Part shown: in pieces, positions 86 through 12,195 of the stretch
How the letters are laid out: each line of letters starts with the position of its first letter
How positions within the stretch are numbered: position 1 is the stretch's first letter
NCBI GenBank assembly: GCA_002424525.1
Contig: DIKJ01000058.1
Span: 1-13,113 of the forward strand
Direction of reading: 5' to 3'
From: Bacteroidales bacterium UBA5621
GTDB lineage: Bacteria; Bacteroidota; Bacteroidia; Bacteroidales; VadinHA17
DNA length: 13,113 bases
Notes under the pieces: generated by a model
What the model was told of the DNA's origin: nothing
Seen by the model: the letters and a program-made list of their open reading frames with translations, nothing else
Database searches by the model: none
Position numbers and translations under genes: made by a program

Positions 86-1375
86 CTACCGTTTGTTTAA
101 CGTAATAAGGTAGCGGAAAGGATTGATTATCTTCTGAAACAGGCTTACATCCCGTGTTATTATTTCCGCAGTTCCCTGCATGTTCTGGGTAAAGTCGAGC
201 CTGATCCCATAGAGGGTCAGCAGGCCGTCAGGAAGAGTTATCTCGATAAGGTAAGCATCGCCGGACGGAACAAGTGACTTGGACCTTACAATACCCCTGA
301 CCATACCAAACTCAAGATATGGGTAACCGCTGAGTTTTATATTTACCGGCTGGCCAGTCTCCACCTTCCCCGACCTTTGCATCCTGAGATTTATTCTTCC
401 GATATAATCGCCAGTTTCAGCCGGGACAATACTCATCACGGGCTCGTCCTTCACAACGGCCTGATTTTCGCTCCAGAAGCGGGTAAAAGTAACTTTGCCC
501 TCGATCGGAGATACCAGCAGGTATGTGTTTTCCCAGATCCTGAGCTGGGCCTTAAGGTTAAGCAGTGATTCATCGAGTATATAAAAGAGTTTCTCCCTCT
601 CTTCGAGCCTGCGTATGGTGTAATCCTGCAAAAGTTGTTTTTTCTCTGCCAGTTCAATTGATTTTGCTGAGCGGTCAAGTCTGACCTGCTGAAGTTCAAT
701 ATTTATTCTGATCAGCGACTGGCGCGAAATCTCCAGTTCACTTTCAGAAAGCACACCTCCTGCGAAAAGCAATGAATCCCTCCTGTATTTCTTCTCTTCA
801 AGCAGTCTGTTCTCGTTAAAAAGCCTCTCTTTAACCCTGACATTTCTTATGTACTCCTCAATACTGCTGATTTCATCCTTCACTGATTCTATCCTGCTTC
901 CATAAAGATCGTTGGTTATGTAGCTATTGAAATCAGAGAGGCTCTTTACGAAAGATGCCCAGAAATTCTGAATTTCTCCCAGCTCTGAAAAACGGGGCAG
1001 AGAGCCCGGAGCGACCAGTTCCGGGTTGCTTAGGGTATCGATTAACGATTTGAGGATCCCGACCTCAGTTATTGATGCCGCTGTCTCCATAACAGCCAGG
1101 AGCTGGCCCTGACTAACCTCTTCCTTCTCTGAAACATAAAGGTTCTTGATCCGTCCGGTTAGTTTGCTTACAATAGGTACAGGAGGATTTACCGTGGTGA
1201 TCTCTACCGGCGATGGTATCGTATCGGGATATCTGATTATCCAGGAGAAGATGAGAAAAAGAAGAAAAATTGCGAACAGAAGCGAAGTCCCGATCCTCAG
1301 AATTCTGCGGGGTGGGTTTCCCATGATCTCCCTTACGGGATCGGAATATATCAGATCAGGTTTCTGGTCTTCCAT
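86..1375 (-). CDS. HlyD-family membrane-fusion (periplasmic adaptor) subunit of a peptide exporter
   Basis: This protein should bridge the inner-membrane ABC transporter encoded just upstream to an outer-membrane channel, so that processed peptide leaves the cell. The 429-residue chain has a short cytoplasmic N-terminus, one membrane helix at about residues 29-48, and a first lipoyl-like half at about 65-100 (KLTGRIKNLYVSEKEEVSQG). A long charged, Leu/Glu/Arg-rich coiled-coil hairpin follows at about 160-283. The second lipoyl half is at about 284-318 (SPIEGKVTF), and a C-terminal beta-barrel region follows. This is the standard order and length for type-1-secretion adaptors. The start lies 8 nt after the stop of the ABC transporter gene, so the two are almost certainly co-transcribed and perhaps translationally coupled. 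No outer-membrane channel gene is in the window; a TolC homologue elsewhere would be needed. The family call is firm; the cargo is inferred from the neighbours. Confidence 0.93.
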   Translation of the reverse strand: MEDQKPDLIYSDPVREIMGNPPRRILRIGTSLLFAIFLLFLIFSWIIRYPDTIPSPVEITTVNPPVPIVSKLTGRIKNLYVSEKEEVSQGQLLAVMETAASITEVGILKSLIDTLSNPELVAPGSLPRFSELGEIQNFWASFVKSLSDFNSYITNDLYGSRIESVKDEISSIEEYIRNVRVKERLFNENRLLEEKKYRRDSLLFAGGVLSESELEISRQSLIRINIELQQVRLDRSAKSIELAEKKQLLQDYTIRRLEEREKLFYILDESLLNLKAQLRIWENTYLLVSPIEGKVTFTRFWSENQAVVKDEPVMSIVPAETGDYIGRINLRMQRSGKVETGQPVNIKLSGYPYLEFGMVRGIVRSKSLVPSGDAYLIEITLPDGLLTLYGIRLDFTQNMQGTAEIITRDVSLFQKIINPFRYLITLNKR

Positions 1376-1383
1376 CAGTGCAT

Positions 1384-3570
1384 TCAGTTACCCAGTTCCA
1401 GCTGGTTTTTAATAAGGTTATAATAGGGACCCTGGTTTTCTATCAGTGTATAGTGGGTACCGGTCTCGACGATCTGTCCCTTTTCGAGTACCACTATCTT
1501 GTCTGCATTTTTTACCGTGCTCAGCCTGTGCGCCACAATTATCACGGTCTTACCTTTAAAATATTCCGCCAGGTTCCGGACAATTGCTTTTTCGTTATTG
1601 GCATCGAGTGAGTTTGTCGCCTCGTCCAGAATAAAAATATCAGGATCCTTGTAGATCACCCGTGCGATCAGCAGGCGTTGCTTCTGGCCTTCGCTCAGCC
1701 CGTGTCCGTTTGCTCCGATTTTGGTATTGTAGCCAAGAGGAAGTGAATCAATGAATTCCCTTATGTTTGCTGTTTCGGCTGACATGATCAGCCTGTCTTC
1801 GTCTATTGTGCCGGGACCCGGTGAAATATTCCTTGCTATTGTCCCCGGGAAAATGTAGCCATCCTGCATTACGGCTCCCACCTTTGTCCTCCACATTTTA
1901 AGGTTAATGTTTGCCAGGGGTGTATCTCCGATCAGTATTTCCCCTGAAACCGGCCGGTAAAACCCCAGGATCATTTTAAGCAACGTTGTTTTTCCGCTGC
2001 CGCTGGTGCCTGCAATCGCAGTGATACTGTTCTTCTCAATGTGAAGATTGATATCCTTTACTGCAAAAGGAGAACGGGGGCCCTCATACTGGTATGAGAT
2101 ATTGCTCAGGGTAATATCCTTTCTTTCCGGCAGTACCTGCAGTTTCATTGCAGCTTCGCTGTCCTCGTCATCCATAGAATGGACCTCGGCCAGCCGGTCG
2201 AGGCTCATTTTGGCATCCTGGGAGATCCTGAAAAAACCAATGATCTGGTTAACCGGTACGTTAAGCTGACCTATAATAAACTGAACGGCAAGCATCATAC
2301 CCAGTGTCATGGAGCCCTTCATGACAGCAGTTGCAGCGATGATCGTAATAAGGATATTTGTGGCCTCGTTGATAAAAACTGCCCCGGCTGACTGATACTG
2401 AATAATGCCCAGGCCCTTAACCTTAAGGCGGAACAAAGATGCCTGGATGTTTTCCCAGTCCCATCGCATATTCATTTCGCTCTGAGTAAGCTTGATCTCC
2501 TGCATACCATTTATAATGCTTATCAGCTTGGAATTGGATGAGGACATCTCTCTGAAGCGCTGATGATCGAGGCGGGCCCGGGGCTTGATAAAAAATGAGA
2601 TCCACACTGTATAGAGCAATGTTCCTGAAATGAAAATTACAAGGATTTTAATACTGAAAATTGCCAGGACTATTCCGAAGACAACCAGATTAAAGAAAGA
2701 AAAGAGTATGCTCAGGCTGGCAGAAGTCAGGAATTCCTCAATCCTGTTGTTATCATCAATTCTCTGAAGGATATCTCCGGTTAACTTTGTGTCAAAGAAA
2801 GCTATGGGCAATGCCATAAGTTTATGAAGGAATCCGGAGATTATTGCCACGTTGACCCTCGAACCAATATGAAGGAGCAGCCATCCCCTGATAAATTCGA
2901 CAGAGGTTCTGCCCAGAATAAGGGCCAGCTGGGCAAATAGAATAAGGTAGATAAAGCCTATATCGTTGTTATTCAACCCAATATCAATAATCGATTGTGT
3001 AAGGAAAGGAATTGTCAGCTGTATTATACTGCCCAGAAGGAGTCCGAGGATCAGCTGTGAGGTGTATTTCCGGTAAAGCCGGAAATATTTCAGAAGGAAT
3101 CTGAATCCCTGGGTTTTCTCCTGCTCGTCGTCAATATCATACAATGCCGGTGCAGGTTCAATAATAAGTACAAGTCCCACCTGTTTACCTCCGGACAAAG
3201 ATGATGACCAGTTATCAATGAATTCTTCCCGTGAATATTTCACAAGGCCGACGGCAGGATCAGCAACCCAGACGGTATCCTTCCTTATCTTGTATACGAC
3301 AACAAAGTGCTTCTGCTTCCAGTGGACAATACAGGGAAGGGGCACATTTCCCGCAAGCATTTCAAAAGATATTTTCACTCCTATAGTTCTGAAGCCAAGT
3401 GAGTCAGCTGCCTCGGAGAGTCCAAGGAATGAGACACCCTCTCTTGTAATGTGGCATTTTTTGCGAAGAGTATCGAGTGTGAAATTCTTCCTGTGGAAGG
3501 CTGCCACCATTTTCAGGCAGGCTGGCCCGCAATCCATGGCATCGGGTTGTCTTACAAAGGGGAACGACAT
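1384..3570 (-). CDS. C39 peptidase-containing ABC transporter (PCAT) for double-glycine leader peptides
   Basis: This is a bifunctional inner-membrane exporter that cleaves a leader after a Gly-Gly pair and pumps the remaining peptide out using ATP. All three modules are visible in 728 residues. The N-terminal C39 cysteine peptidase has Gln8, Cys14 in DCGPAC, His88 in KQKHFVVV and Asp104 in ADPA, so it should be active. The membrane domain spans about residues 165-445 with several hydrophobic helices. The ATPase has Walker A GTSGSGKTT at 521-529, Q-loop Gln569, signature LSEGQ at 625-629, Walker B ending LDE at 648-650 and switch His681. The HlyD-type adaptor gene follows directly. The gene is divergent from the sigma-factor gene across 153 bp. 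The obvious candidate substrate is the Gly-Gly peptide encoded at 7605-7745. No peptide-modifying enzyme lies nearby, so the cargo may be unmodified. That pairing is inference; the family call is secure. Confidence 0.96.
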   Translation of the reverse strand: MSFPFVRQPDAMDCGPACLKMVAAFHRKNFTLDTLRKKCHITREGVSFLGLSEAADSLGFRTIGVKISFEMLAGNVPLPCIVHWKQKHFVVVYKIRKDTVWVADPAVGLVKYSREEFIDNWSSSLSGGKQVGLVLIIEPAPALYDIDDEQEKTQGFRFLLKYFRLYRKYTSQLILGLLLGSIIQLTIPFLTQSIIDIGLNNNDIGFIYLILFAQLALILGRTSVEFIRGWLLLHIGSRVNVAIISGFLHKLMALPIAFFDTKLTGDILQRIDDNNRIEEFLTSASLSILFSFFNLVVFGIVLAIFSIKILVIFISGTLLYTVWISFFIKPRARLDHQRFREMSSSNSKLISIINGMQEIKLTQSEMNMRWDWENIQASLFRLKVKGLGIIQYQSAGAVFINEATNILITIIAATAVMKGSMTLGMMLAVQFIIGQLNVPVNQIIGFFRISQDAKMSLDRLAEVHSMDDEDSEAAMKLQVLPERKDITLSNISYQYEGPRSPFAVKDINLHIEKNSITAIAGTSGSGKTTLLKMILGFYRPVSGEILIGDTPLANINLKMWRTKVGAVMQDGYIFPGTIARNISPGPGTIDEDRLIMSAETANIREFIDSLPLGYNTKIGANGHGLSEGQKQRLLIARVIYKDPDIFILDEATNSLDANNEKAIVRNLAEYFKGKTVIIVAHRLSTVKNADKIVVLEKGQIVETGTHYTLIENQGPYYNLIKNQLELGN

Positions 3571-3723: not shown

Positions 3724-4290
3724 TTGTTCCGAAGAATTTCTGATACAGCCATTATTGAAGGAGTGCGCCGCCAGGATGACAGGACGTTAAACTGGCTGTA
3801 CGATAATTTCCTGCAGACAGTCAGGCATCATGTGCTCAAGAACAGCGGATCTGAGGCAGATGTTTCAGATGTATTTCAGGAATCGATTATTACACTCTAC
3901 CGGCAGATAACGGAAAATACCCTCAACCTGACTACCGATCTTAAGGGCTATTTTTTCGGTATCGCCCGGAACATATGGAGCAGTCAGCTCCGGCTGAAAA
4001 GGAGAAATACAGAACTTAACACTGATTTCGCCGATGAAAGCTATACCGACGGGTTAACTGATGCAATTCTCGAAAAGATCATAAGCAGGGCTTTCAGCAA
4101 ATTAAAACCAGATGCGCAGAGAATACTGGTTCTTTTTTCAGAAGGATGCTCATATGAAGAAATTGCAGGTAAGATGAACCTTAAGAACGAGACCTACGCC
4201 AGACGTAAAAAATATCTCAGCAAAGAATCGCTGATGAGCCTGATGAAAGAGGACCCTGAATACAGGGATTACCTTGATCTGCGAAAATAG
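3724..4290 (+). CDS. ECF-like sigma-70 family RNA polymerase sigma factor
   Basis: This is a two-domain sigma factor expected to direct RNA polymerase to a small set of promoters. Region 2 covers about residues 22-94, with the helix around SEADVSDVFQESIITLYR and the LKGYFFGIARN segment. Region 4 covers about 115-172, with a helix-turn-helix around CSYEEIAGKMNLKNETYARRKKYL. At 188 residues with no region 1 or 3 it has ECF size. No ATG exists in frame upstream; TTG at 3724 is the best start, because the likely transcription start is only about 20 nt before it, though the purine-rich stretch sits unusually close. The 3' end overlaps the end of the convergent TPR-CHAT gene by 22 bp. The natural partner is the anti-sigma-like membrane TPR protein encoded at 7935-8681; that pairing is inferred from domain type and proximity. 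Confidence 0.9.
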   Translation: MFRRISDTAIIEGVRRQDDRTLNWLYDNFLQTVRHHVLKNSGSEADVSDVFQESIITLYRQITENTLNLTTDLKGYFFGIARNIWSSQLRLKRRNTELNTDFADESYTDGLTDAILEKIISRAFSKLKPDAQRILVLFSEGCSYEEIAGKMNLKNETYARRKKYLSKESLMSLMKEDPEYRDYLDLRK

Positions 4291-7200
4291 AAATATACCG
4301 GTATTGCTGCAAGGAGAAGGATAACCGCGGCAGATATGAGTACGCGTTTATGATACCAGAGCGGCGAATTATTCCCATAAATAACAAGGGCAGCCCAGAA
4401 AGAGGGATGGGAGCCGATCTGGCTGGCCTTTTTCAGGTATTTTATCCTGGCTTTCTGAAGGGCATCTGTTTTTGATTTTCCTTTCCTCAGATTATGGTAG
4501 AATTGTTTGATGATCTCTGTTCCTGATCTGTCTTCAATCTCCCATAGTGACATGACCACCGACTGACTGCCTGCATAGATGAATCCCCGTGCCAGGCTCA
4601 GTACCCCCTCTCCTGAATTGAGGAGACCCGTTCCGGTGTTACAGGAGCTCAGTACAACCATTTTGGCTCTAAGTGGAATACCATATACCTCCCATGTGTT
4701 CAGGAAACCATCTTCCTGTCCATTGCGCTCCGGATAGAATACCATGGTGGAATGCATGGGTGACCGGTCGTTGAGTACTGTGTGCATTGCAAGATGGATT
4801 ATGTCGTAATTTCCCGATTCAGCCTTGAAAACCGATTCAAGTGCACCGTTATTGATATAAAGCCTGCCCCTGGAAAGTGCCGCAACATATTCAGCCTCCT
4901 GCCTTGCAAAGGGGATATCTGCAAGAAATCTCATGTCATTTTGCCTGTTACGGGTTAGCGAGTCAGCATGGATCGTTCCGGGGTATACCGGAGCGAAGGC
5001 AACCAGTTTATTGCCGGGTCTGTACTTCTTGCTCTGTGATTCTGACAAAAATGTCAGGGAGTAGGTATAGGATATTCTGAAGTCGTACATTAAATAACGT
5101 AGTTCACGATAGAGAATCTCAGTCCCCTGGTACTGCTCCGGGATCAGAGTCTCGAAAGGAAGGTATGAGAGAATATTGTCGGGTGAGATCAGCAGATTGT
5201 CTGATATCAGGTATTTTCTGGCGGGCTCCAGAAGAATTTTATATAAATAGATACCAAGCCTCTGAAATTCCCCGAATTGCTCCCTGGCGTTCGCAGACCT
5301 TGCGGGAGCAAGAAGAAGAGCCCGGTAAGCCTTCAGGTTGTCAAAGAATTCAGGGCCTGTTGAGAGAGAGAGAATTTCCTGGTGCTTCCGGTTTACAACA
5401 AAAATGTAGATCATGGTGTCGGTAACAATGTAACTGAGATAATTCCCTCTTGATCCTGCCACTCTCGGAATGTCGTTCAATTCAGTCACACGGGTGTTAT
5501 ACTTAATGAGGTAATATTCAGGATACTGTTTTTCGAACAGGCGGATAAGGGAATCTCTTTCGTGGGAAGCTCTGAGCAGGTTGTCGTTCCATTCATTCAG
5601 AAGGTATTCATCAGGAGTATCCTTATATTTCTCAGCCAGAATTCTTGCGTTATTATGGCTGATTTCCCGCTGAAGGTCCCTTTCGAGATCAGCAATGCCG
5701 GAGGGGATATGAAACTGAGTTGCCTTCAGCTCCCGTGTTGCGGCGAGCAACCCGGCCACTTTGCTTCTCTCGGAGTATTCAAACGCCTTTTCAAGGTAGT
5801 TCTTTCTGCCAGTAATCTGATAGCAGAGACCAAAATCGCGGATCGCAAAAAGATATGAATCGCGGTAACGATCGCCAAGGATCAGCCTGCTCTCCTCCTC
5901 CGACAGATTTATCCTGACTCTCTCCAGGACCGAAATGATGAGTTCTGCAGTACCGGCAGCCGCAAGGAGGTATTCCGGATCATCTGATTCTTCGAAAATA
6001 TCCCATAAGATCAAATACTTTGTCCTGAGAAGGTCGAGAGAGCGCTGGTCATTCTTCAATGATCCCGGAGTGGGATTTTCCAGGTTGCTGCCCGGCCTGG
6101 CATCAGCTTCGGGATAAAGCATCTCCTGAACAATGTGCAGAGCCTCCATTGACCCGCCGGTTGAGGAGAGTGCAAGAGAATAGCCCTGCAATACAGGTTC
6201 TCTCAGGAGGAGATCCTCCTTATGGGAATTCAAATATTCGATACAGATGGAATAATACGGGAGCGACCTGCTGTATTGTTTGCTGTAAACCCGCAGATAT
6301 TCAGCATAATTCTTGATTATCTCAATATAATTTCTTGATGCGGGCCCATAGACTTTCAGCCCTTTCTCCAGTAATCTTTCGAGAAGCATTTCTCCTTCTC
6401 CCGCCCTGCCCTCTTTAGCAAGCCTGATTGCATAGCTGTTTATTATGTTATTAGCAATTATTGAGGTATACTCCCCTGCGATAATGACACCTCTCTTGTA
6501 GTAATCATCAGATTTATCGGAATAACCAAGATAATCATATGCTATTGCCAGACTGTTAAGCAGATTGATAAATCTGTCATCCTTCTTCAGTCTCCATTTA
6601 TCATAAAACGATTCAGTTTTCTCAAGATATGGAATAGCCCTGGCATAATCGGACAACCGCATATGGCAGACACCTATATTATAATAAAGGTCGGCAAGCT
6701 CTGATGCGTTGGATTCATTTTCAGTTTTATTAATTATCCCTATTGCCCTGTTCCCGTATGTAATGGATCTCTCATATTCCTGAAGCTCTATGCTTGCATT
6801 AATGAGATTTGAAAGGCTGCCGATCAGTTCAGTGCTTGTGCTGCCATAAAGCTTCTCCTCCGCATTCAGTGACCTTAAAGAATAAATATACATGTTCCGG
6901 AAGTCGCCATTGTAATTACAGGCAACTGCGAGGTTATAGAGGGTTCTTGCGTAAATATCGTCGTGTTCGTTAATTTCTTCCCTGATCACTTCAGCCTTTT
7001 GCAGATATTTGACAGCATCACTGTTGTTTCCCGTAAGGAGGTTATAAGCACCGATAAGATAAAAGGACTCCGATAAAACAAGGGAATCAATGTCCAGGGC
7101 AAGGGCAGGTAATATTCTGGCGATGATATTATTGCTTTCAGAGAATTTGTTCAGCCTGATACTCTGTCTGAGTGATGAATTCAGTTCCATGACGCTACGT

Positions 7201-7361
7201 GAATGCCGGTCCAGTACTTTGTCAGGATCCTTACTGCCGGCAAGCAGTTTCTCAATGCCGGGGGTGCCGGGGCTGAAGCAGGTGAATGCAGTAAGGTTGT
7301 TGAAAACTGCAATAAAGATCAGCCAGAACACAATGCATTTAATATGATGTTTGCATGCCAT
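4269..7361 (-). CDS. exported, tail-anchored TPR-CHAT caspase-like protease
   Basis: This is a predicted cysteine protease of the CHAT (caspase HetF associated with TPRs) family. An N-terminal hydrophobic signal (about residues 9-21) precedes a long array of TPR-like helical repeats (about 60-480), a further helical region (about 480-640) and a C-terminal CHAT domain (about 640-975). The catalytic pair is present: His860 in HLAMHTVLND and Cys907 in VVLSSCNTGTG. The typical downstream block with GEGVLSLARGFIYAG and SLWEIED follows. A final membrane helix at about 1007-1026 ends in RRSR. This arrangement puts the TPR and CHAT domains in the periplasm and the basic tail in the cytoplasm. The gene is divergent from the Gly-Gly peptide gene and convergent with the sigma gene. 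Its substrate is unknown; the membrane anti-sigma-like TPR protein is a reasonable candidate. Many Bacteroidota TPR-CHAT proteins have no known function, so only the domain call is firm. Confidence 0.9.
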   Translation of the reverse strand: MACKHHIKCIVFWLIFIAVFNNLTAFTCFSPGTPGIEKLLAGSKDPDKVLDRHSRSVMELNSSLRQSIRLNKFSESNNIIARILPALALDIDSLVLSESFYLIGAYNLLTGNNSDAVKYLQKAEVIREEINEHDDIYARTLYNLAVACNYNGDFRNMYIYSLRSLNAEEKLYGSTSTELIGSLSNLINASIELQEYERSITYGNRAIGIINKTENESNASELADLYYNIGVCHMRLSDYARAIPYLEKTESFYDKWRLKKDDRFINLLNSLAIAYDYLGYSDKSDDYYKRGVIIAGEYTSIIANNIINSYAIRLAKEGRAGEGEMLLERLLEKGLKVYGPASRNYIEIIKNYAEYLRVYSKQYSRSLPYYSICIEYLNSHKEDLLLREPVLQGYSLALSSTGGSMEALHIVQEMLYPEADARPGSNLENPTPGSLKNDQRSLDLLRTKYLILWDIFEESDDPEYLLAAAGTAELIISVLERVRINLSEEESRLILGDRYRDSYLFAIRDFGLCYQITGRKNYLEKAFEYSERSKVAGLLAATRELKATQFHIPSGIADLERDLQREISHNNARILAEKYKDTPDEYLLNEWNDNLLRASHERDSLIRLFEKQYPEYYLIKYNTRVTELNDIPRVAGSRGNYLSYIVTDTMIYIFVVNRKHQEILSLSTGPEFFDNLKAYRALLLAPARSANAREQFGEFQRLGIYLYKILLEPARKYLISDNLLISPDNILSYLPFETLIPEQYQGTEILYRELRYLMYDFRISYTYSLTFLSESQSKKYRPGNKLVAFAPVYPGTIHADSLTRNRQNDMRFLADIPFARQEAEYVAALSRGRLYINNGALESVFKAESGNYDIIHLAMHTVLNDRSPMHSTMVFYPERNGQEDGFLNTWEVYGIPLRAKMVVLSSCNTGTGLLNSGEGVLSLARGFIYAGSQSVVMSLWEIEDRSGTEIIKQFYHNLRKGKSKTDALQKARIKYLKKASQIGSHPSFWAALVIYGNNSPLWYHKRVLISAAVILLLAAIPVYFYFRRSR

Positions 7362-7390
7362 GGATAAACAACTTAAAATAGATTTCCCCG

Positions 7391-7411
7391 TATAAAGATT
7401 AAAACTTTATA
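7391..7411. promoter_or_regulatory. Perfect 7-7-7 inverted repeat upstream of the TPR-CHAT gene
   Basis: The arms TATAAAG (7391-7397) and CTTTATA (7405-7411) are exact reverse complements around a 7-nt spacer, ATTAAAA. The centre lies about 40 nt upstream of the TPR-CHAT start, so an operator or promoter role is plausible. The region is AT-rich and chance symmetry is possible. The 243-bp divergent gap 7362-7604 holds no other recognisable gene. Confidence 0.3.
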
Positions 7412-7538
7412 TTAAAATCCAAAACGTTGAGCAAAACAGTCTGTACAATCTTCGCTAACCAATTGATTCCCAGTACACATGATTTTTTATAAAAAAAGAT
7501 TGATTTTTTTGTGTCACAAAACCGGTATTTCTGACATG

Positions 7539-7549
7539 TTACAATGTAA
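7539..7549. promoter_or_regulatory. Short palindrome upstream of the peptide gene
   Basis: TTACA-A-TGTAA is a perfect palindrome about 56 nt before the peptide start. A one-mismatch -7-like element, TATTTCTG, lies just before it at 7526-7533, without a well-spaced -33 element. It could be an operator or part of an alternative-sigma promoter, but the support is only symmetry and position. Confidence 0.22.
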
Positions 7550-7604
7550 GCCAAAAAAGGCATTTCGAAAAAACCTGGAGTATAAACCATAAAAAATCAA
7601 TATT

Positions 7605-7745
7605 ATGAAGACCCTGAAACTGGAAGTAGTAAATGAAATTTTGAGAGAATTTGTTCTTAGTGATGAAGAAATGATTTGTGTCCGCGGAGGAAACCCCGAT
7701 GGCGATCCGATAGTAATGCCCAACCCCCCTCCGGTTAAGATATAG
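7605..7745 (+). CDS. 46-residue double-glycine leader peptide with a proline-rich core
   Basis: This small gene encodes a peptide with a 29-residue leader rich in Leu, Glu and Val that ends in LSDEEMICVRGG. That is the L-x-x-E-M-x-x-(I/V)-x-G-G pattern of Bacteroidales Gly-Gly precursor peptides cut by C39 transporters. Cleavage after Gly29 would release the 17-residue core NPDGDPIVMPNPPPVKI. Six of the 17 core residues are proline, with Pro31, Pro35 and Pro39 four residues apart. The core has no Cys, Ser or Thr, so lanthionine, thiazole and disulfide chemistry are excluded. ATG 7605 is the first start after an in-frame TAA at 7590, and a terminator begins 12 nt after the stop. A C39 transporter operon lies 4 kb away. 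The peptide may be a signal, a bacteriocin or a ligand for neighbouring proteins; its role is unknown. Confidence 0.82.
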   Translation: MKTLKLEVVNEILREFVLSDEEMICVRGGNPDGDPIVMPNPPPVKI

Positions 7746-7757
7746 TTCTTCACAGAC

Positions 7758-7789
7758 ATACAGTTTCTGTGAAACTGTATTTGTTTTTT
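7758..7789 (+). terminator. Intrinsic terminator of the peptide gene
   Basis: A perfect 9-bp stem, ATACAGTTT (7758-7766) with AAACTGTAT (7772-7780), closes a 5-nt loop and is followed directly by TTGTTTTTT (7781-7789). It begins 12 nt after the peptide stop, so the peptide is probably made from a short, separate transcript. An overlapping alternative stem, CACAGA (7751-7756) with TCTGTG (7766-7771), cannot form at the same time. Confidence 0.75.
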
Positions 7790-7867
7790 GCAGTATCGGC
7801 TGATGAATGATCTGTGCCTGGCTGGCAGGTGGATCAATAAAAGCAGAGTACTTATGAGCGACATAGT

Positions 7868-7897
7868 TAATATACAGATGTTAAATATCTGTTATTA
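7868..7897. promoter_or_regulatory. Inverted repeat upstream of the anti-sigma-like gene
   Basis: TAATATACAGAT (7868-7879) pairs with ATCTGTTATTA (7887-7897), with one bulged base and a 7-nt spacer, GTTAAAT. It lies about 37-67 nt before the start of the membrane TPR gene and has no T-run, so it is more likely an operator or a 5' leader hairpin than a terminator. The 189-bp gap 7746-7934 otherwise holds only the terminator of the peptide gene. Confidence 0.35.
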
Positions 7898-7934
7898 AAG
7901 GTATGGCAAAGATAAATTAACCAAATATATAATT

Positions 7935-8681
7935 ATGAAAACAATTGATTTTTCATACTTCATCGAAAGGTTTAATGCCGGAGAGATGGATGATGCCGAA
8001 AGAAAATGGTTCCTTAAGGAACTTGAAGGCAATGAGAAGCTTCGACGGGAGGCTGAACTCAGGAAAAGGACTGATGGTTTTCTGAAGGAGCGCGAGATAT
8101 TCACGCTGAAGGAAAAGCTCGCCGCAATCGAAAAGAACAGGGAAACAGTGAGGGCTGACAGAGAATCGCGAAAACCCGCGAAATTGAAATACGCTGCGCT
8201 GATTATTGTTCTGGCAATAGCAGGGGGTATCGCATTAATCCCGGGAAAGAAATTATCCAGTGAAGAGATAATGAACCGGTATTACAGTGCATATGAGACA
8301 ACAGCAACCTCCAGGTCCTACATTGCCGAGGCGGATCCTGATTATTTAATGGCAATGGATTATTACAAGATCCACGATTTCAGGAGAGCGGCCATTTATT
8401 TCAGCAAAGTCTTGGAAAACAATCCTAAGGACATGGAATCCACCTTATTGCAAGGGGTTTCTAATTTTGAGATCTCCAATTATCCTGAATCCAAGCAATT
8501 ATTTACCAGTGTAATAGATGACAACAACAACCTCTTCATTGAGGATGCCAGATGGTATCTTGCACTTTGTTACATCAGGACCGATGAGGAGATGAAAGCG
8601 ATCGGCCAGCTTCAGGAAATAAAGAAATCCAGCAGCATATACAAAAGTGATGCTAAGAAGATCCTTCGAAAAATCAACTAA
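7935..8681 (+). CDS. anti-sigma-like single-pass membrane protein with periplasmic TPR domain
   Basis: The cytoplasmic N-terminus (residues 1-50) carries the pattern FIERFNAGEMDDAERKWF...L...EKLRREAEL. It resembles the anti-sigma N-terminal region of Bacteroidota regulators (the Y-L-x-G-E-M-s-x-E-E-R pattern), without a zinc-binding His/Cys set. A charged linker leads to one membrane helix at about 85-103. The outer part (about 130-248) is built of TPR-like helical hairpins, for example around AMDYYKIHDFRRAAIYFSKV and ARWYLALCYIRTDEEMKA. This topology fits a protein that holds a sigma factor inside and senses or binds something outside. The sigma factor at 3724-4290 is the likely partner and the periplasmic TPR-CHAT protease a possible regulator. 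The histidine kinase gene follows after 23 bp, suggesting one operon. Membership of a TPR membrane family is firm; the anti-sigma role is inferred. Confidence 0.75.
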   Translation: MKTIDFSYFIERFNAGEMDDAERKWFLKELEGNEKLRREAELRKRTDGFLKEREIFTLKEKLAAIEKNRETVRADRESRKPAKLKYAALIIVLAIAGGIALIPGKKLSSEEIMNRYYSAYETTATSRSYIAEADPDYLMAMDYYKIHDFRRAAIYFSKVLENNPKDMESTLLQGVSNFEISNYPESKQLFTSVIDDNNNLFIEDARWYLALCYIRTDEEMKAIGQLQEIKKSSSIYKSDAKKILRKIN

Positions 8682-8704
8682 GGTAAAATAAATCTTACTC
8701 TGGC

Positions 8705-9541
8705 ATGTTCGATACATCCGGTCACCCCATAAACCTTGGAGTTACATCAGGGCATAAAAAACTGACTGATCCGGCAAAAGCTTCCGGCGCAGATCAGTCC
8801 GTGATGAACTGTACCGCATTGCTGAAGGGGCTGTCGCATGAGATGAGAACGCACATGAATGCCGTTGTCGCCTTTTCATACATAATGAACAAGGACGGAT
8901 ACAGCGAAGGCGAACGCGGGGAATTTGGAACACAGGTAATGAACTCATGTGAACAGTTGATAGGATTATTCGACAATTTTCTCGATACGGCAATAATAGA
9001 GGCAGGAAATTCCAAAACCGAGGAGAGAGTAATCAGGACCGATGTTTTTCTTGATGACCTTTTTTCGGAATTCAGGAGTATAATGAGAGGGGAAAAATAT
9101 GCAGATCTGATGCTGGTAACGGAAAACCAGTTTTCCGGATCAGCCGAGGTTATGTTCGATTCTTACAAGATTGCAAGGGTAATGCGCAACCTTTTTCAGA
9201 ATGCCCTGCACAATACGAAATCGGGGTATATCAAGGTCGGTTATTCACTCGGAAGCAATCGCCTGAATTGTTATATCCTTGATTCAGGGCAGGGATATTC
9301 AGCAACAAAGGAGTTTTTCCAGACAGACGATCTGAACAGCTCCCTGGGCAAGTTTCCGGATATCTACCAGGCTATTAATGTTGCCCTCACAAGAAAGCTT
9401 GTCGGATTGCTCGGAGGTGAAATACGGGTTGAATGCAATGGGCTGAAAGGTACCGGTATCTATTTCTCAATCCCCGCAGTAATACCGGGAAACAACAGAG
9501 TAGCTATGAACAAACTTTCAAACAATAAGATTACCATCTGA
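8705..9541 (+). CDS. soluble orphan histidine kinase (HisKA-HATPase core only)
   Basis: This is a 278-residue sensor-kinase core without membrane helix, PAS, GAF or receiver domain. The dimerisation and phosphoacceptor helix carries LKGLSHEMRTHMNAVVAFS with His45 as the phosphorylated residue. The usual RTP is RTH here, so the conserved helix-kinking proline is missing. The ATP-binding domain shows the N box NLFQNALHN (Asn166), the G1 box DSGQGY (Asp193) and a G2-like GLKGTG (246-251) followed by IYFSIP. All residues needed for ATP binding appear to be there. About 35 N-terminal residues are not recognisable; Met34 is a possible later start. The gene follows the anti-sigma-like TPR gene by 23 bp and is followed by a strong terminator, so it probably belongs to that operon. 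No response regulator is in the window; its phosphorylation partner is unknown. Confidence 0.87.
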   Translation: MFDTSGHPINLGVTSGHKKLTDPAKASGADQSVMNCTALLKGLSHEMRTHMNAVVAFSYIMNKDGYSEGERGEFGTQVMNSCEQLIGLFDNFLDTAIIEAGNSKTEERVIRTDVFLDDLFSEFRSIMRGEKYADLMLVTENQFSGSAEVMFDSYKIARVMRNLFQNALHNTKSGYIKVGYSLGSNRLNCYILDSGQGYSATKEFFQTDDLNSSLGKFPDIYQAINVALTRKLVGLLGGEIRVECNGLKGTGIYFSIPAVIPGNNRVAMNKLSNNKITI

Positions 9542-9596
9542 TTTAGGTTGTAATATGTATGCCGATGTCTGCGTACAAAAAGCGTGAGTAAAGGAG

Positions 9597-9625
9597 AATA
9601 GCTGTCCGGACGGACAGCTATTTTT
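9597..9625 (+). terminator. Strong intrinsic terminator after the histidine kinase gene
   Basis: A perfect 11-bp stem, AATAGCTGTCC (9597-9607) with GGACAGCTATT (9612-9622), closes a 4-nt loop and runs into a T5 tract (9621-9625). It ends the plus-strand operon and overlaps the stop codon of the convergent OmpA-family gene (9618-9620). On the minus strand the hairpin is not followed by a T-run, so termination is mainly in the plus direction. Confidence 0.85.
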
Positions 9626-11627
9626 CATTTGCTATTATCTTCACCTCAGTTCTCCTGTTGAGCTTCCGGCCTTCCAGAGTAATATTGTCACCCAGGGGCG
9701 AAGTGTTGCCATATCCTTTATATTTAAGTCTTTCCGGCGTGATACCTTTTTCCCTGAGATAATTGACAACCGACAGGGCTCTTCTTTCCGAAAGAACGAG
9801 ATTATGTTCATCCGTTCCTGTGGAATCGGTATACCCTCCAATCTCAACAACAAGATTCCTGTTCTCTTCAAGCAGGTTCGCCAGCCTGTTTAGTTCCATA
9901 ACAGACTCCTTCTTCAGCTCCCATGAATCAACTTCATAAAAAACATTCGACAGAAGCATCCGCTCTCCGACCTTAAGGGGGCTGAGCTGTATCTGTTTAA
10001 TAAACGGCTCTACAAGAGAATGTTCACCCTCCAGCATAAAGCTTTCTGAGTAAAAAAGGTACCCGGGTTTGCTGACATTCAGCCCGTAATTGTTGCCGGA
10101 AGGAAGGCAAACGAGAAAATCACCACTGGCATCGGTAGAATTACTGATTAATATCGTACTTGTAGAAAGGTTGATTAATTCATAACTGGCCCTTATCAGT
10201 TTTCCTGTCTCCTTATCATAGACCTTTCCCTTTAGGTACGACACCGGATCGGGTCTTACTGATTCATGCAGATCGAACCAGAAAATGTCCTTCCCCGTTT
10301 CATTATCCCTTCTGGAAGAGAAGTAGGCTCTCTGGCCGGCAGATTCAATAACAAGGCCCGTTTCGTCGTTGTATGTATTGATCGGATAACCCAGGTTGAC
10401 CGGAACTGTCCATGTACTGTCTTCCTTCATCCTTGACATATAGATGTCGAACCCTCCCATTCCGGGTCTGCCGTCTGACGAGAAGTAGAGAGACTTTCCG
10501 TCGAAATGAAAGAAGGGAGACATCTCATCGCCATCTGTATTGATTGTCTCTCCGAGGTTTTTGGGGTTTGACCATTTACCACTGCTGTTAAGTACGGAAT
10601 ACCACAGGTCCTTTCCCCCCATTCCTCCCGGTCTGCTGCTTGAAAAGAAAATGAGCCTGCCATTGGAGCTGACCGAGGGCTGTGATTCCCAGGCCGGGGT
10701 ATTGACAGGCGGGCCAAGGTTGACTGGCTCGGACCATCTTCCATTGGCCAGGGATGAGAAGAAGATATCACAGCTTCCCATTCCTCCGGACCGGTCGCAG
10801 GCGGTGAAGAACATATAGGTTCCATCGGAGGAGAGAGACTGTGCTCCCTCATTACTGCGGGTATTCAAAGGAGGGCCCGCGTTTACTGCCCTCTGCCACG
10901 TTCCGTTGCGGAACTGGCTGATATAGAAATCCTCCTGCGCCTGCACCGTAAAAGAGCCTCTTTCGACCGGCCGCGCCTGCCTGGTAAACATCATGGTTTG
11001 TCCGTCAGCAGTAATAGAGGGCCAGTATTCATCATCGCGGGTGTTAATACCACTACCAATGTCAACCGGATTAAACGGGACAGGTTTTTTGATCGCTTCA
11101 ATGGCAAAACCACAGTTTTCAATATTCCTGAGGGCTTTTAACCTGTTCTTGTCAGATATGCCCGGCTGGCTGATGTAAACATGATAATGAATCAGGGCTT
11201 TCTCATAATCCCCCGACATGAACTCGGCGTTGGCAAGATTAAAAAAAACCGGTCTGTAGAACAATGAATCGATTCTGACTGCATTACGATAGTAGCTGGC
11301 GGCTTCATTAAACCTTCTGAGATCTGTCATGAGCTCCCCAAGCATAAGCCAGGCTTCGTAGAATTCTGAATCGATTTTTGTTGCTTCCTTCAGATATGAT
11401 TCAGCTCTGCTGAAATTGAAGTAATCGTATGCCTGTGCCCCTTCCTTATAAGCTTTCAGGGCCTTGTTGGAAGTGGTATGGTAAGTCTGGGGAAACATGT
11501 ATTCTGACGGAAAGGAGAGCAACAGTATCAGAAGGATCAGCCTGCGAAGGATTGAACGGTATTCAGGGTATATGCATGAATTTATGTATCTGCAGGGAGA
11601 TCCTCCATTCTGTGTTTCTTCTGACAT
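9618..11627 (-). CDS. PorE-like OmpA-family protein (TPR, PD40 propeller, carboxypeptidase-regulatory-like, OmpA)
   Basis: This is an exported cell-envelope protein that should bind peptidoglycan through its C-terminal OmpA domain. Counting from the ATG at 11627 (669 residues), a hydrophobic signal is at about 27-40. TPR-like repeats follow at about 52-170 and a PD40/WD40-like propeller at about 190-450, with recurring blocks such as SSDGTYMFFTACDRSGGMG and SSSRPGGMGGKDLWYS. A carboxypeptidase-regulatory-like beta-sandwich is at about 463-545 and the OmpA domain at 555-669, with GYTDSTG (Asp601) and LSERRA (Arg616). The order matches PorE of the type IX secretion system, but Bacteroidota encode several paralogues of this shape and no lipobox Cys is visible, so I give no symbol. 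The start is uncertain: the frame opens further up to 11750, and the preferred ATG gives a 28-residue tail before the signal and a 65-bp overlap with queE. Co-transcription with queE is likely. Confidence 0.85.
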   Translation of the reverse strand: MSEETQNGGSPCRYINSCIYPEYRSILRRLILLILLLSFPSEYMFPQTYHTTSNKALKAYKEGAQAYDYFNFSRAESYLKEATKIDSEFYEAWLMLGELMTDLRRFNEAASYYRNAVRIDSLFYRPVFFNLANAEFMSGDYEKALIHYHVYISQPGISDKNRLKALRNIENCGFAIEAIKKPVPFNPVDIGSGINTRDDEYWPSITADGQTMMFTRQARPVERGSFTVQAQEDFYISQFRNGTWQRAVNAGPPLNTRSNEGAQSLSSDGTYMFFTACDRSGGMGSCDIFFSSLANGRWSEPVNLGPPVNTPAWESQPSVSSNGRLIFFSSSRPGGMGGKDLWYSVLNSSGKWSNPKNLGETINTDGDEMSPFFHFDGKSLYFSSDGRPGMGGFDIYMSRMKEDSTWTVPVNLGYPINTYNDETGLVIESAGQRAYFSSRRDNETGKDIFWFDLHESVRPDPVSYLKGKVYDKETGKLIRASYELINLSTSTILISNSTDASGDFLVCLPSGNNYGLNVSKPGYLFYSESFMLEGEHSLVEPFIKQIQLSPLKVGERMLLSNVFYEVDSWELKKESVMELNRLANLLEENRNLVVEIGGYTDSTGTDEHNLVLSERRALSVVNYLREKGITPERLKYKGYGNTSPLGDNITLEGRKLNRRTEVKIIANEK

Positions 11628-12195
11628 AGCTGACAATATCGGGAATGACTTCACTGAATCTGCTCCATTCCGGCTGCAGAAAGAGAAGGCAACCCGGGTT
11701 GACCAGCTCCCTGTTTTTTTCCGCCCAGAGAAAATCATTTTCGTCCTCAATTATTACTTTCAGTTCATCTGCCGCACCGCACACCTCTTTAAGCGGAGGT
11801 CTGGACCTTTTCGGAGAAAGACAGATCCAGTCCCATTCGCCACTCAGAGGATAAGCTCCTGATGTCTCGGCAAATGTACTAATATTATTTTGTTTGAGGT
11901 GGCAGCACAGGTAGTCGAGATCCCACATAAAGGGTTCTCCTCCCGTAACAACAACCGAGCCGGCACCTGAGCTGACAGCATTAGCTATGATTGAATCTGT
12001 TTCCACCAGAGGATGCAGACCGGGATCCCAGGCAAAGGGTGTATCGCACCATGTGCAACCTATGTCACATCCGCCTAGCCTGATAAAGTATGCAGCTTTT
12101 CCTGCGTGAAAGCCCTCTCCCTGAATGGAAAAGAATTCTTCGACGAGGGGCAACTTTTCTCCACCCGCATCCCGGAAGCTGTCGTCTTCAATCAA
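11563..12195 (-). CDS. queE: 7-carboxy-7-deazaguanine synthase (radical SAM)
   Basis: QueE converts 6-carboxy-tetrahydropterin to 7-carboxy-7-deazaguanine, a step in making queuosine and other deazapurines, in the cytoplasm. The 210-residue protein has the N-terminal substrate motif FFSIQGEGFHAGKAAYFIRLGG and the radical-SAM cysteines Cys43, Cys47 and Cys50 in CDIGCTWCDTPFAWD. The SAM-binding block TGGEP is at 84-88, a LSPKRSRPPL segment follows, and the C-terminus SLQIHKFMHIP is typical of the family. The start is TTG at 12195, preceded by a weak CAGGA; an alternative is CTG at 12215, directly after the stop of the phosphatase gene. The phosphatase gene ends 21 nt upstream, so the two are probably co-transcribed although functionally unrelated. 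No other queuosine genes are in the window. Confidence 0.93.
   Translation of the reverse strand: MIEDDSFRDAGGEKLPLVEEFFSIQGEGFHAGKAAYFIRLGGCDIGCTWCDTPFAWDPGLHPLVETDSIIANAVSSGAGSVVVTGGEPFMWDLDYLCCHLKQNNISTFAETSGAYPLSGEWDWICLSPKRSRPPLKEVCGAADELKVIIEDENDFLWAEKNRELVNPGCLLFLQPEWSRFSEVIPDIVSYVRRNTEWRISLQIHKFMHIP

Follow-up and report, generated by a model that had tools for sequence, protein, structure and literature searches.

Here, we describe a putative regulatory locus on contig DIKJ01000058.1 of Bacteroidales bacterium UBA5621 (GenBank assembly GCA_002424525.1), in a stretch of 13,113 nucleotides that was analysed whole and is referred to as the window. The locus contains genes for an extracytoplasmic function (ECF) sigma factor, a protease with tetratricopeptide repeats (TPR) and a CHAT domain, a small peptide with a Gly-Gly leader, a membrane TPR protein and a histidine kinase (Table 1). 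An initial annotation, made from the sequence alone, had placed these five genes beside an exporter, and all five were confirmed at their places, with the genes for the HlyD protein and the C39 peptidase ATP-binding cassette (ABC) exporter adjoining the sigma gene. The sigma and CHAT genes are convergent, meeting tail-to-tail with a 22-base overlap.

Table 1. Features of the window, with positions counted from its first base.
Feature	Position	Strand	Remarks
HlyD-type membrane-fusion partner of the exporter	86..1375	-	Pfam HlyD_3, 30.6 bits (cut-off 22.2)
C39 peptidase ABC exporter	1384..3570	-	Peptidase_C39, 131.5 bits; ABC_tran, 114 bits
ECF sigma factor	3724..4290	+	Listed TTG start, provisional; Pfam and NCBIfam profiles over cut-off
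TPR-CHAT protease	4269..7361	-	PF12770, 186.2 bits (cut-off 24)
Two-block promoter-like element	7512..7540	+	TGTCACAAA-N12-GACATG; proposed sigma promoter of the peptide gene
Gly-Gly-leader peptide gene P0002	7605..7745	+	46 residues; predicted mature peptide of 17 residues
Terminator-like hairpin with T tail	7758..7780	+	Directly 3' of the peptide gene
Membrane TPR protein	7935..8681	+	FecR-like cytoplasmic helical domain, one transmembrane segment, periplasmic TPR
Histidine kinase	8705..9541	+	HisKA-HATPase; no recognised sensor domain

By its sequence, the sigma gene product is an ECF sigma factor, as the initial annotation had supposed, with Sigma70 regions 2 and 4 over their curated cut-offs (PF04542, 27.1 vs 24 bits; PF08281, 26.7 vs 25.7 bits) and TIGR02937 at 57.7 vs 42.9 bits. 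The membrane TPR protein, which had been called anti-sigma-like, is very probably an anti-sigma factor, as judged from homology at the profile level and from the adjacency of sigma genes, with sigma binding and inhibition predicted. Its transmembrane (TM) segment lies at residues ~84-102 and was present in 19/19 sequences, and its AlphaFold2 model has a predicted local distance difference test score (pLDDT) of 81.4. In hhalign comparisons, the cytoplasmic domain matched FecR N-termini at 85.8% (27 FecR sequences) and 90.9% (14 sequences picked by the authors), against a maximum of 6.8% in 76 control windows. Only this profile-profile comparison linked the domain to FecR; a plain profile search of 61 open reading frames (ORFs) from FecR loci gave weak matches only (best E-value, E, 0.009), and sequence profiles from the PDB gave nothing informative. 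The periplasmic FecR domain PF04773 was not matched in the protein, and since TPR families match in its place, the protein was not filed as a FecR protein. The TPR part (residues 126-248) has structural matches that include peptide-binding TPR domains, with no anti-sigma structure among the matches listed. In the window, the CHAT and peptide genes separate the sigma and TPR genes; in other Bacteroidota families, the sigma gene lies directly upstream of the TPR gene in 28/29 phylum loci (27 by profile and one by Pfam) and adjoins it in 14/20 order-level loci. At E 1e-8, the class matches 131/296 sampled phylum genomes, with many weaker rows of this search covering the TPR part alone. A Bacteroidota-wide class of anti-sigma factors with a FecR-like cytoplasmic domain, one TM segment and a periplasmic TPR part, mostly encoded beside an ECF sigma factor, is thus strongly supported. 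In one locus (L240, 3146-4492), the sigma factor and the TPR anti-sigma factor share a single 448-residue open frame, which may be a natural fusion or an assembly indel.

The TPR-CHAT protein is a CHAT (caspase-like) peptidase by its domain and its His/Cys dyad, and proteolysis is predicted. The intact His860 and Cys907 reported in the initial annotation are there, and both are invariant in 18/18 and 50/50 aligned relatives. A C-terminal TM segment was found in 18/18 relatives and an N-terminal hydrophobic segment in 13/18, the window included, so that the predicted export of the protein, with a C-terminal TM anchor, is well supported by hydropathy rather than by a signal-peptide program. The periplasmic protease and membrane-based design proposed earlier are therefore upheld as predictions, with a periplasmic topology predicted for the protease as well as for the TPR portion of the anti-sigma factor. 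The AlphaFold2 model (pLDDT 85.7; predicted template modelling score 0.80) has Csx29 and separase as its best structural matches, and the structure of DdvA is also among the matches. The genome encodes a third CHAT protein (contig C161; L006, 7711-10584), for which a sigma or TPR partner was undetected in the 17 kb taken.

Small ORFs between the CHAT and TPR genes, to which the initial annotation had pointed, were looked for, and the 46-residue Gly-Gly peptide was found there. Across relatives, a plus-strand Gly-Gly ORF occurs in 63/65 CHAT-to-TPR intergenic regions, vs 4/65 on the opposite strand and 1/1300 first-order Markov shuffles of these regions, and is therefore not due to chance. A minus-strand ORF of 63 residues (7399-7590) was discarded as spurious in favour of the plus-strand ORF at 7605-7745. 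The predicted cores have 10-26 residues (median 17), a mean of 19% Pro and a median net charge of -1, with a positive charge in 2/65. Over the last 14 residues of the leader, 53 clade-A-like peptides have a mean identity of 0.73, compared with 0.28 for their cores. No curated family covers the peptides tried (8 of the 65 and the window's own among them); some leaders weakly match bacteriocin or ribosomally synthesised and post-translationally modified peptide (RiPP) leader models, below cut-off. The hairpin after the gene is weak evidence alone, because shuffles yield 0.4 such hairpins (standard deviation 0.8) against the 1 found. With its leader and an intact C39 exporter close by, the peptide classes as a C39-exported Gly-Gly peptide, the exporter being predicted to remove the leader and export the remainder; the Cys motif DCGP[AV]C of the exporter is present in 20/20 family regions. 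The kinase scores just above the cut-off for HATPase_c (26.8 vs 26.4 bits) and just below it for HisKA (23.7 vs 26.9 bits), with no recognised sensor domain and no adjacent response regulator identified. The phospho-acceptor His is retained in 17/18 family kinases and replaced by Arg in L037 (10653-11489; SREMRT), which calls into question the need for kinase catalysis in every locus.

Lack of conservation past close relatives, which the initial annotation had named as fatal to its proposal, was not found, because the gene set extends far beyond them: through the family, a wider set of named loci and a second copy. Among 98 sampled genomes of the family, searched at E 1e-3, 90 have a match to CHAT, 80 to the TPR protein and 95 to the sigma factor, counts that take in distant paralogues. 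Twenty family regions (own locus included) were picked by the authors from the CHAT matches. All 20 have the order sigma, CHAT, TPR protein; the exporter is on the sigma side in 18 and beyond the kinase in L054 and L055, and HlyD adjoins C39-ABC in 14. The kinase comes next after the TPR protein except in L043, with L042 cut by the contig end. A Gly-Gly ORF lies between the CHAT and TPR genes in 16 regions by pattern and in L042, L054 and L055 by eye, and there is none in L043. The named loci are the best 80 of 187 relatives from a scan of genome contigs with the TPR alignment; they overlap with the 20 family regions (some are in the same genomes), and almost all are metagenome-assembled genomes titled Bacteroidales or Bacteroidota, with one titled Chitinivibrionales. 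In those evaluable, having enough contig on the required side, CHAT was found in 64/66, the sigma factor in 56/57, the Gly-Gly peptide in 63/70, the kinase in 63/71 and the C39 exporter in 36/39. The kinase is also absent in five of the seven peptide-less loci (L123, L165, L167, L170 and L176) and present in L137, and the contig of L144 ends too early; it is missing from two of the 63 peptide-bearing loci (L126 and L127). Tandem Gly-Gly peptides, two or three with similar acidic cores, occur in the divergent loci L158, L168 and L175.

A second set of the genes is found in the same genome on contig C179, in the order peptide (+), CHAT (+), TPR protein (-), sigma (-) and kinase (+), with the peptide gene directly upstream of CHAT. 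Together with 13 orthologous loci picked from the CHAT, TPR and sigma matches, sigma, TPR protein and CHAT are present in 14/14, the kinase in 12/14 (absent in L262 and L266) and a Gly-Gly peptide in 8/14; no C39 gene was detected in the 14 stretches. In L266, a small Cys-rich ORF (11518-11709) located towards the sigma gene also contains a Gly-Gly motif and possibly encodes another exported peptide; it was left out of this count. As the gene order differs from that of the window, inheritance as a single fixed block does not account for the repeated association of these genes, and their occurrence together in two orders is read as that of a functional unit. We conclude with high confidence that the sigma factor, anti-sigma factor, TPR-CHAT protein, Gly-Gly peptide and kinase form one unit, in which the TPR protein is the anti-sigma factor.

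Alignment of 16 regions upstream of peptide genes revealed TGTCACAAA and a GACATG-like block at equal spacing, with the second block varying in L045, L046-L048 and L051. A looser motif is present in 18/18 clade-A regions between the CHAT and TPR genes, with two chance-like matches elsewhere (L046 and L047). The exact pattern occurs once in the own 3.7-Mb genome, and in the 98 family genomes it yields 76 rows in 55 genomes, all within 3 of 15 genera, compared with 12 rows for a reversed control. By hand count, the module accounts for 53 rows (52 sites), including one next to CHAT where a contig ends; the other 23 rows (21 sites) lie away from the module. With three mismatches allowed, the own genome gives 10 rows vs 12 in the control, so that only its two one-mismatch rows are regarded as meaningful. 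One of these, the second own-genome site (C18:11358), is followed after ~0.4 kb by genes for an unassigned membrane-protein-like product, an AhpC-TSA protein and a C39-ABC exporter, and a run of N between the promoter-like site and the C39-ABC set (L177, 3358-7001; G000:C18) could accommodate a small gene. In L043 (G055; 9521-9799) and L123, which represent one lineage, the promoter stands directly before the anti-sigma gene, as in a natural knock-out of the peptide branch.

Divergent clades have other two-block elements at the same place upstream of the peptide gene. The clade B element (GGGTAAC...GGAATAAA) was found once each in 5/6 peptide-bearing loci (not L156), was not matched in L159 or L144, where a peptide was undetected, and has 2 matches in other loci (2.24 Mb, partly redundant); one of these two, in L242 (14456), itself precedes a Gly-Gly peptide by 80 bases. 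The clade D element (GACATTT...GGAAGTGGAACnTAT) was found in 3/3 loci and the clade C element (TGTCACGTTTTT...ATGnACCTC) in 3/4, neither with a match elsewhere; the first peptide of the fourth clade C locus, L175, is at contig base 36, with its upstream region absent from the contig. GTAACA is present in 8/8 upstream lines of second-copy peptides. Within-clade counts are not independent, because the patterns were written from the same loci, and the independent evidence consists of the counts elsewhere and L242. Clade-specific promoters are what one would predict were every sigma lineage to control the gene of its own peptide. A conserved promoter likely links the peptide to the sigma factor, and we regard it as well founded, if short of certain, that the sigma factor drives the peptide gene. 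To look for further candidate targets, 19 of the 21 non-module sites and one module site were taken. Ten downstream proteins chosen by the authors comprise two with type IX secretion system (T9SS) sorting tails, two with Peptidase_S74, one each with Fib_succ_major, fn3 and HlyD, and three without a Pfam match. The same fn3 protein (a lipoprotein by eye) lies ~120 bases after the motif in L075, L077, L079 and L081 and is a recurrent candidate target.

The exporter is linked to sigma/anti-sigma pairs elsewhere as well. In L247 and L251, genes for the sigma factor, the TPR protein and C39-ABC form a tight operon, with HlyD next in L251; CHAT was undetected and no peptide pattern was matched in these stretches. 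In L239, the C39 gene is closely preceded by a Gly-Gly ORF, and together these loci indicate that the exporter belongs to the theme even without a detected CHAT. Of the 20 order-level regions, however, only 4 had a detected C39 gene and 2 a kinase of the family type.

The best explanation for these observations, which we put forward tentatively, is a membrane sigma/anti-sigma switch wired to an exported peptide. The sigma factor would transcribe the peptide gene, and the C39 exporter would cut the leader and export a mature peptide of ~17 residues. Binding of this peptide by the periplasmic TPR surfaces of CHAT, the anti-sigma factor or both would activate CHAT, which would then cut the anti-sigma factor between its TM segment and TPR domain, with Arg127 as a candidate site. 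General proteases would remove the remaining stub, and the freed sigma factor would direct the synthesis of further peptide and of a limited group of secreted proteins. Judged from gene content and structural models, cleavage of the anti-sigma factor by CHAT is an evenly balanced proposition, and the role of the peptide as activating ligand is plausible but somewhat less secure. More speculatively, the system may be a Bacteroidota peptide pheromone, in which an exported Pro-rich peptide is read again by periplasmic TPR receptors and induces itself through caspase-like destruction of a membrane anti-sigma factor; on this reading, a single genome can run two circuits in parallel, each with its own peptide and promoter.

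Several observations weigh against such a switch. The anti-sigma domain has no match in the Pfam or NCBIfam anti-sigma families, and mirror-tree correlations fail to single out the sigma/anti-sigma pair, all partner correlations being 0.85-0.97 over 52 loci. Arg127, in a poorly ordered linker between the TM segment and TPR domain, is invariant in 64/64 proteins and would suit a caspase-like cut, but it is also kept in 21/23 homologues without a CHAT gene within 1.5 kb and in 5/6 with one; being equally conserved without an adjacent CHAT, it provides no evidence for cleavage by CHAT and was discarded as an argument for a cut specific to that protease. There are clearly sigma/anti-sigma pairs that have no CHAT next to them, as CHAT was undetected in 9/20 order-level sigma regions (some of these stretches end early). 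The exact clade-A motif is present in 47/70 named loci and its looser form in 52, L043 and L123 retain the promoter but lack the peptide and kinase, and no peptide was detected in 6/14 second-copy loci.

Four other accounts of the locus were weighed. The peptide may be an output, namely a small molecule with antimicrobial or surface activity that is exported once CHAT and the sigma factor have responded to envelope stress. Gly-Gly leaders and C39 exporters serve bacteriocins, the sigma-type promoter before the peptide gene is as for an effector, other motif sites precede secreted proteins and the weak leader matches point the same way. The cores, however, are short, Pro-rich and mostly acidic to neutral, the peptide accompanies the regulators in two gene orders, and no immunity-like gene was noticed in the block, though no search was aimed at one; we consider this account rather unlikely. 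It is less probable again that CHAT acts on the peptide or another partner, in signal maturation or in destruction as negative feedback, while sensing of the peptide falls to the anti-sigma factor, through its TPR part. The structural matches of that part to peptide-binding TPR domains and the pairs without an adjacent CHAT, including the operons of L247 and L251, would fit this arrangement, but CHAT is a neighbour of the pair under both gene arrangements, and Csx29 is a precedent for a CHAT protease that relieves a sigma inhibitor (PMC10028731).

The remaining accounts fare worse. The persistence of the exporter beside the pair in L247 and L251, even where CHAT was undetected, would fit an export-quality sensor, with the peptide as a sentinel whose failed export reports envelope or exporter trouble and turns the sigma factor on. 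A sigma-type promoter would make such a sentinel a main target, however, and the variable core beside a conserved leader points to strains recognising one another more than to a generic sentinel; a sensor of this kind appears improbable. The poorest fit is CHAT as a scaffold or receptor without a protease role, which would make the system a divided form of DdvA, the transmembrane anti-sigma factor whose structure is among the matches of CHAT; a pure scaffold would not require the dyad, which is invariant in 50/50 relatives, and we give this account very little weight.

Downstream of the kinase are genes for an OmpA/PD40 protein, a QueE-like protein and an alkaline phosphatase. The OmpA/PD40 protein (9618-11750) is a member of the conserved neighbourhood and resembles PorE of the T9SS (320 bits, cut-off 600); its listed TTG start is probably too long, as it overlaps the QueE-like gene. 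No RNA elements were found at gathering score. A defence-system reading was rejected, as PADLOC matched only generic ATPase and OmpA/MotB models and weak partial ones (among them CHAT to BovA, E 0.0018; sigma to a CARF model, E 0.0019). A plasmid-borne reading was also rejected, the TPR protein having no PLSDB match.

Parts of this system resemble known ones. Gram-positive Gly-Gly pheromone systems such as ComC/ComAB combine a Gly-Gly leader, a C39 exporter and a nearby histidine kinase; here, the kinase lacks a recognised sensor domain, and the circuit has as its output an ECF sigma factor that an anti-sigma factor restrains. In DdvA, the anti-sigma domain, TM segment and TPR-CHAT part form a single polypeptide, whereas here the anti-sigma domain and CHAT are on two separate genes and a peptide is linked; the likeness is structural only, and DdvA may be seen as another analogue of the system. 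The DdvS/DdvA pair of Myxococcus xanthus (PMC4374960, PMC12288465) served as a comparison system, DdvA being described as an anti-sigma factor with its signal unknown (PMC4374960). Caspase homologues also occur in operons with sigma factors in Myxococcus (PMC3501461). ECF54 sigma factors have CHAT genes in their context and are proposed to work without an anti-sigma factor (PMC8999054); compared by description, the ECF-CHAT link is common to both, and an anti-sigma factor, peptide and exporter are added here. With FecI/FecR, the locus has in common a cytoplasmic domain homologous by profile and mostly adjacent sigma and anti-sigma genes, but a periplasmic TPR part replaces the FecR domain and no TonB-receptor gene was noticed in the block. 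Regulated proteolysis of anti-sigma factors, as of RseA by DegS and of RsiW (as cited in PMC10028731), is like the logic proposed here, with a first cut of the anti-sigma factor and then sigma release, although the first protease would be a caspase-like CHAT protein and not DegS. In a survey, class I anti-sigma factors were near 6% of Bacteroidetes ECF sigma factors vs 32% in all phyla, for which its authors suggested broken synteny or other regulation modes, such as other anti-sigma classes (PMC7406223). The TPR anti-sigma class would fill part of this gap.

The initial annotation had likened the locus to type III-E CRISPR systems, in which the Csx29 CHAT protease acts on a sigma inhibitor; this Craspase works with Cas7-11, is RNA-activated and involves Csx30 and CASP-sigma (PMC10028731). 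The analogy stands as such, but kinship does not: the type III-E models score far under their cut-offs on the window proteins (Csx29 NF041237, 11.9 vs 300; sigma NF041236, 23.7 vs 100), and no protein of the own genome exceeds the Csx29 cut-off. There was no match to Cas7-11 or Csx30 among the ten window ORFs scanned (the rest of the genome was not searched for them), and the window has no CRISPR array by a search for tandem or short-spaced direct repeats, in agreement with its description as CRISPR-free. By these sequence tests, the locus is no type III-E relative; its CHAT protein is predicted to be periplasmic, the inhibitor is a membrane protein, and a Gly-Gly peptide and exporter are involved. 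A search of open-licence PubMed Central papers (subscription papers and bioRxiv being outside this scope) yielded no account of a CHAT/anti-sigma pair with an associated Gly-Gly peptide, and the system may be a previously unnoticed self-amplifying signalling switch in uncultured Bacteroidales. Should the peptide prove to be the signal, Bacteroidota would have a communication circuit that is based on a peptide and acts by way of a caspase-like protease, with type III-E Craspase and DdvA taking their places as relatives within a wider sigma/CHAT theme.

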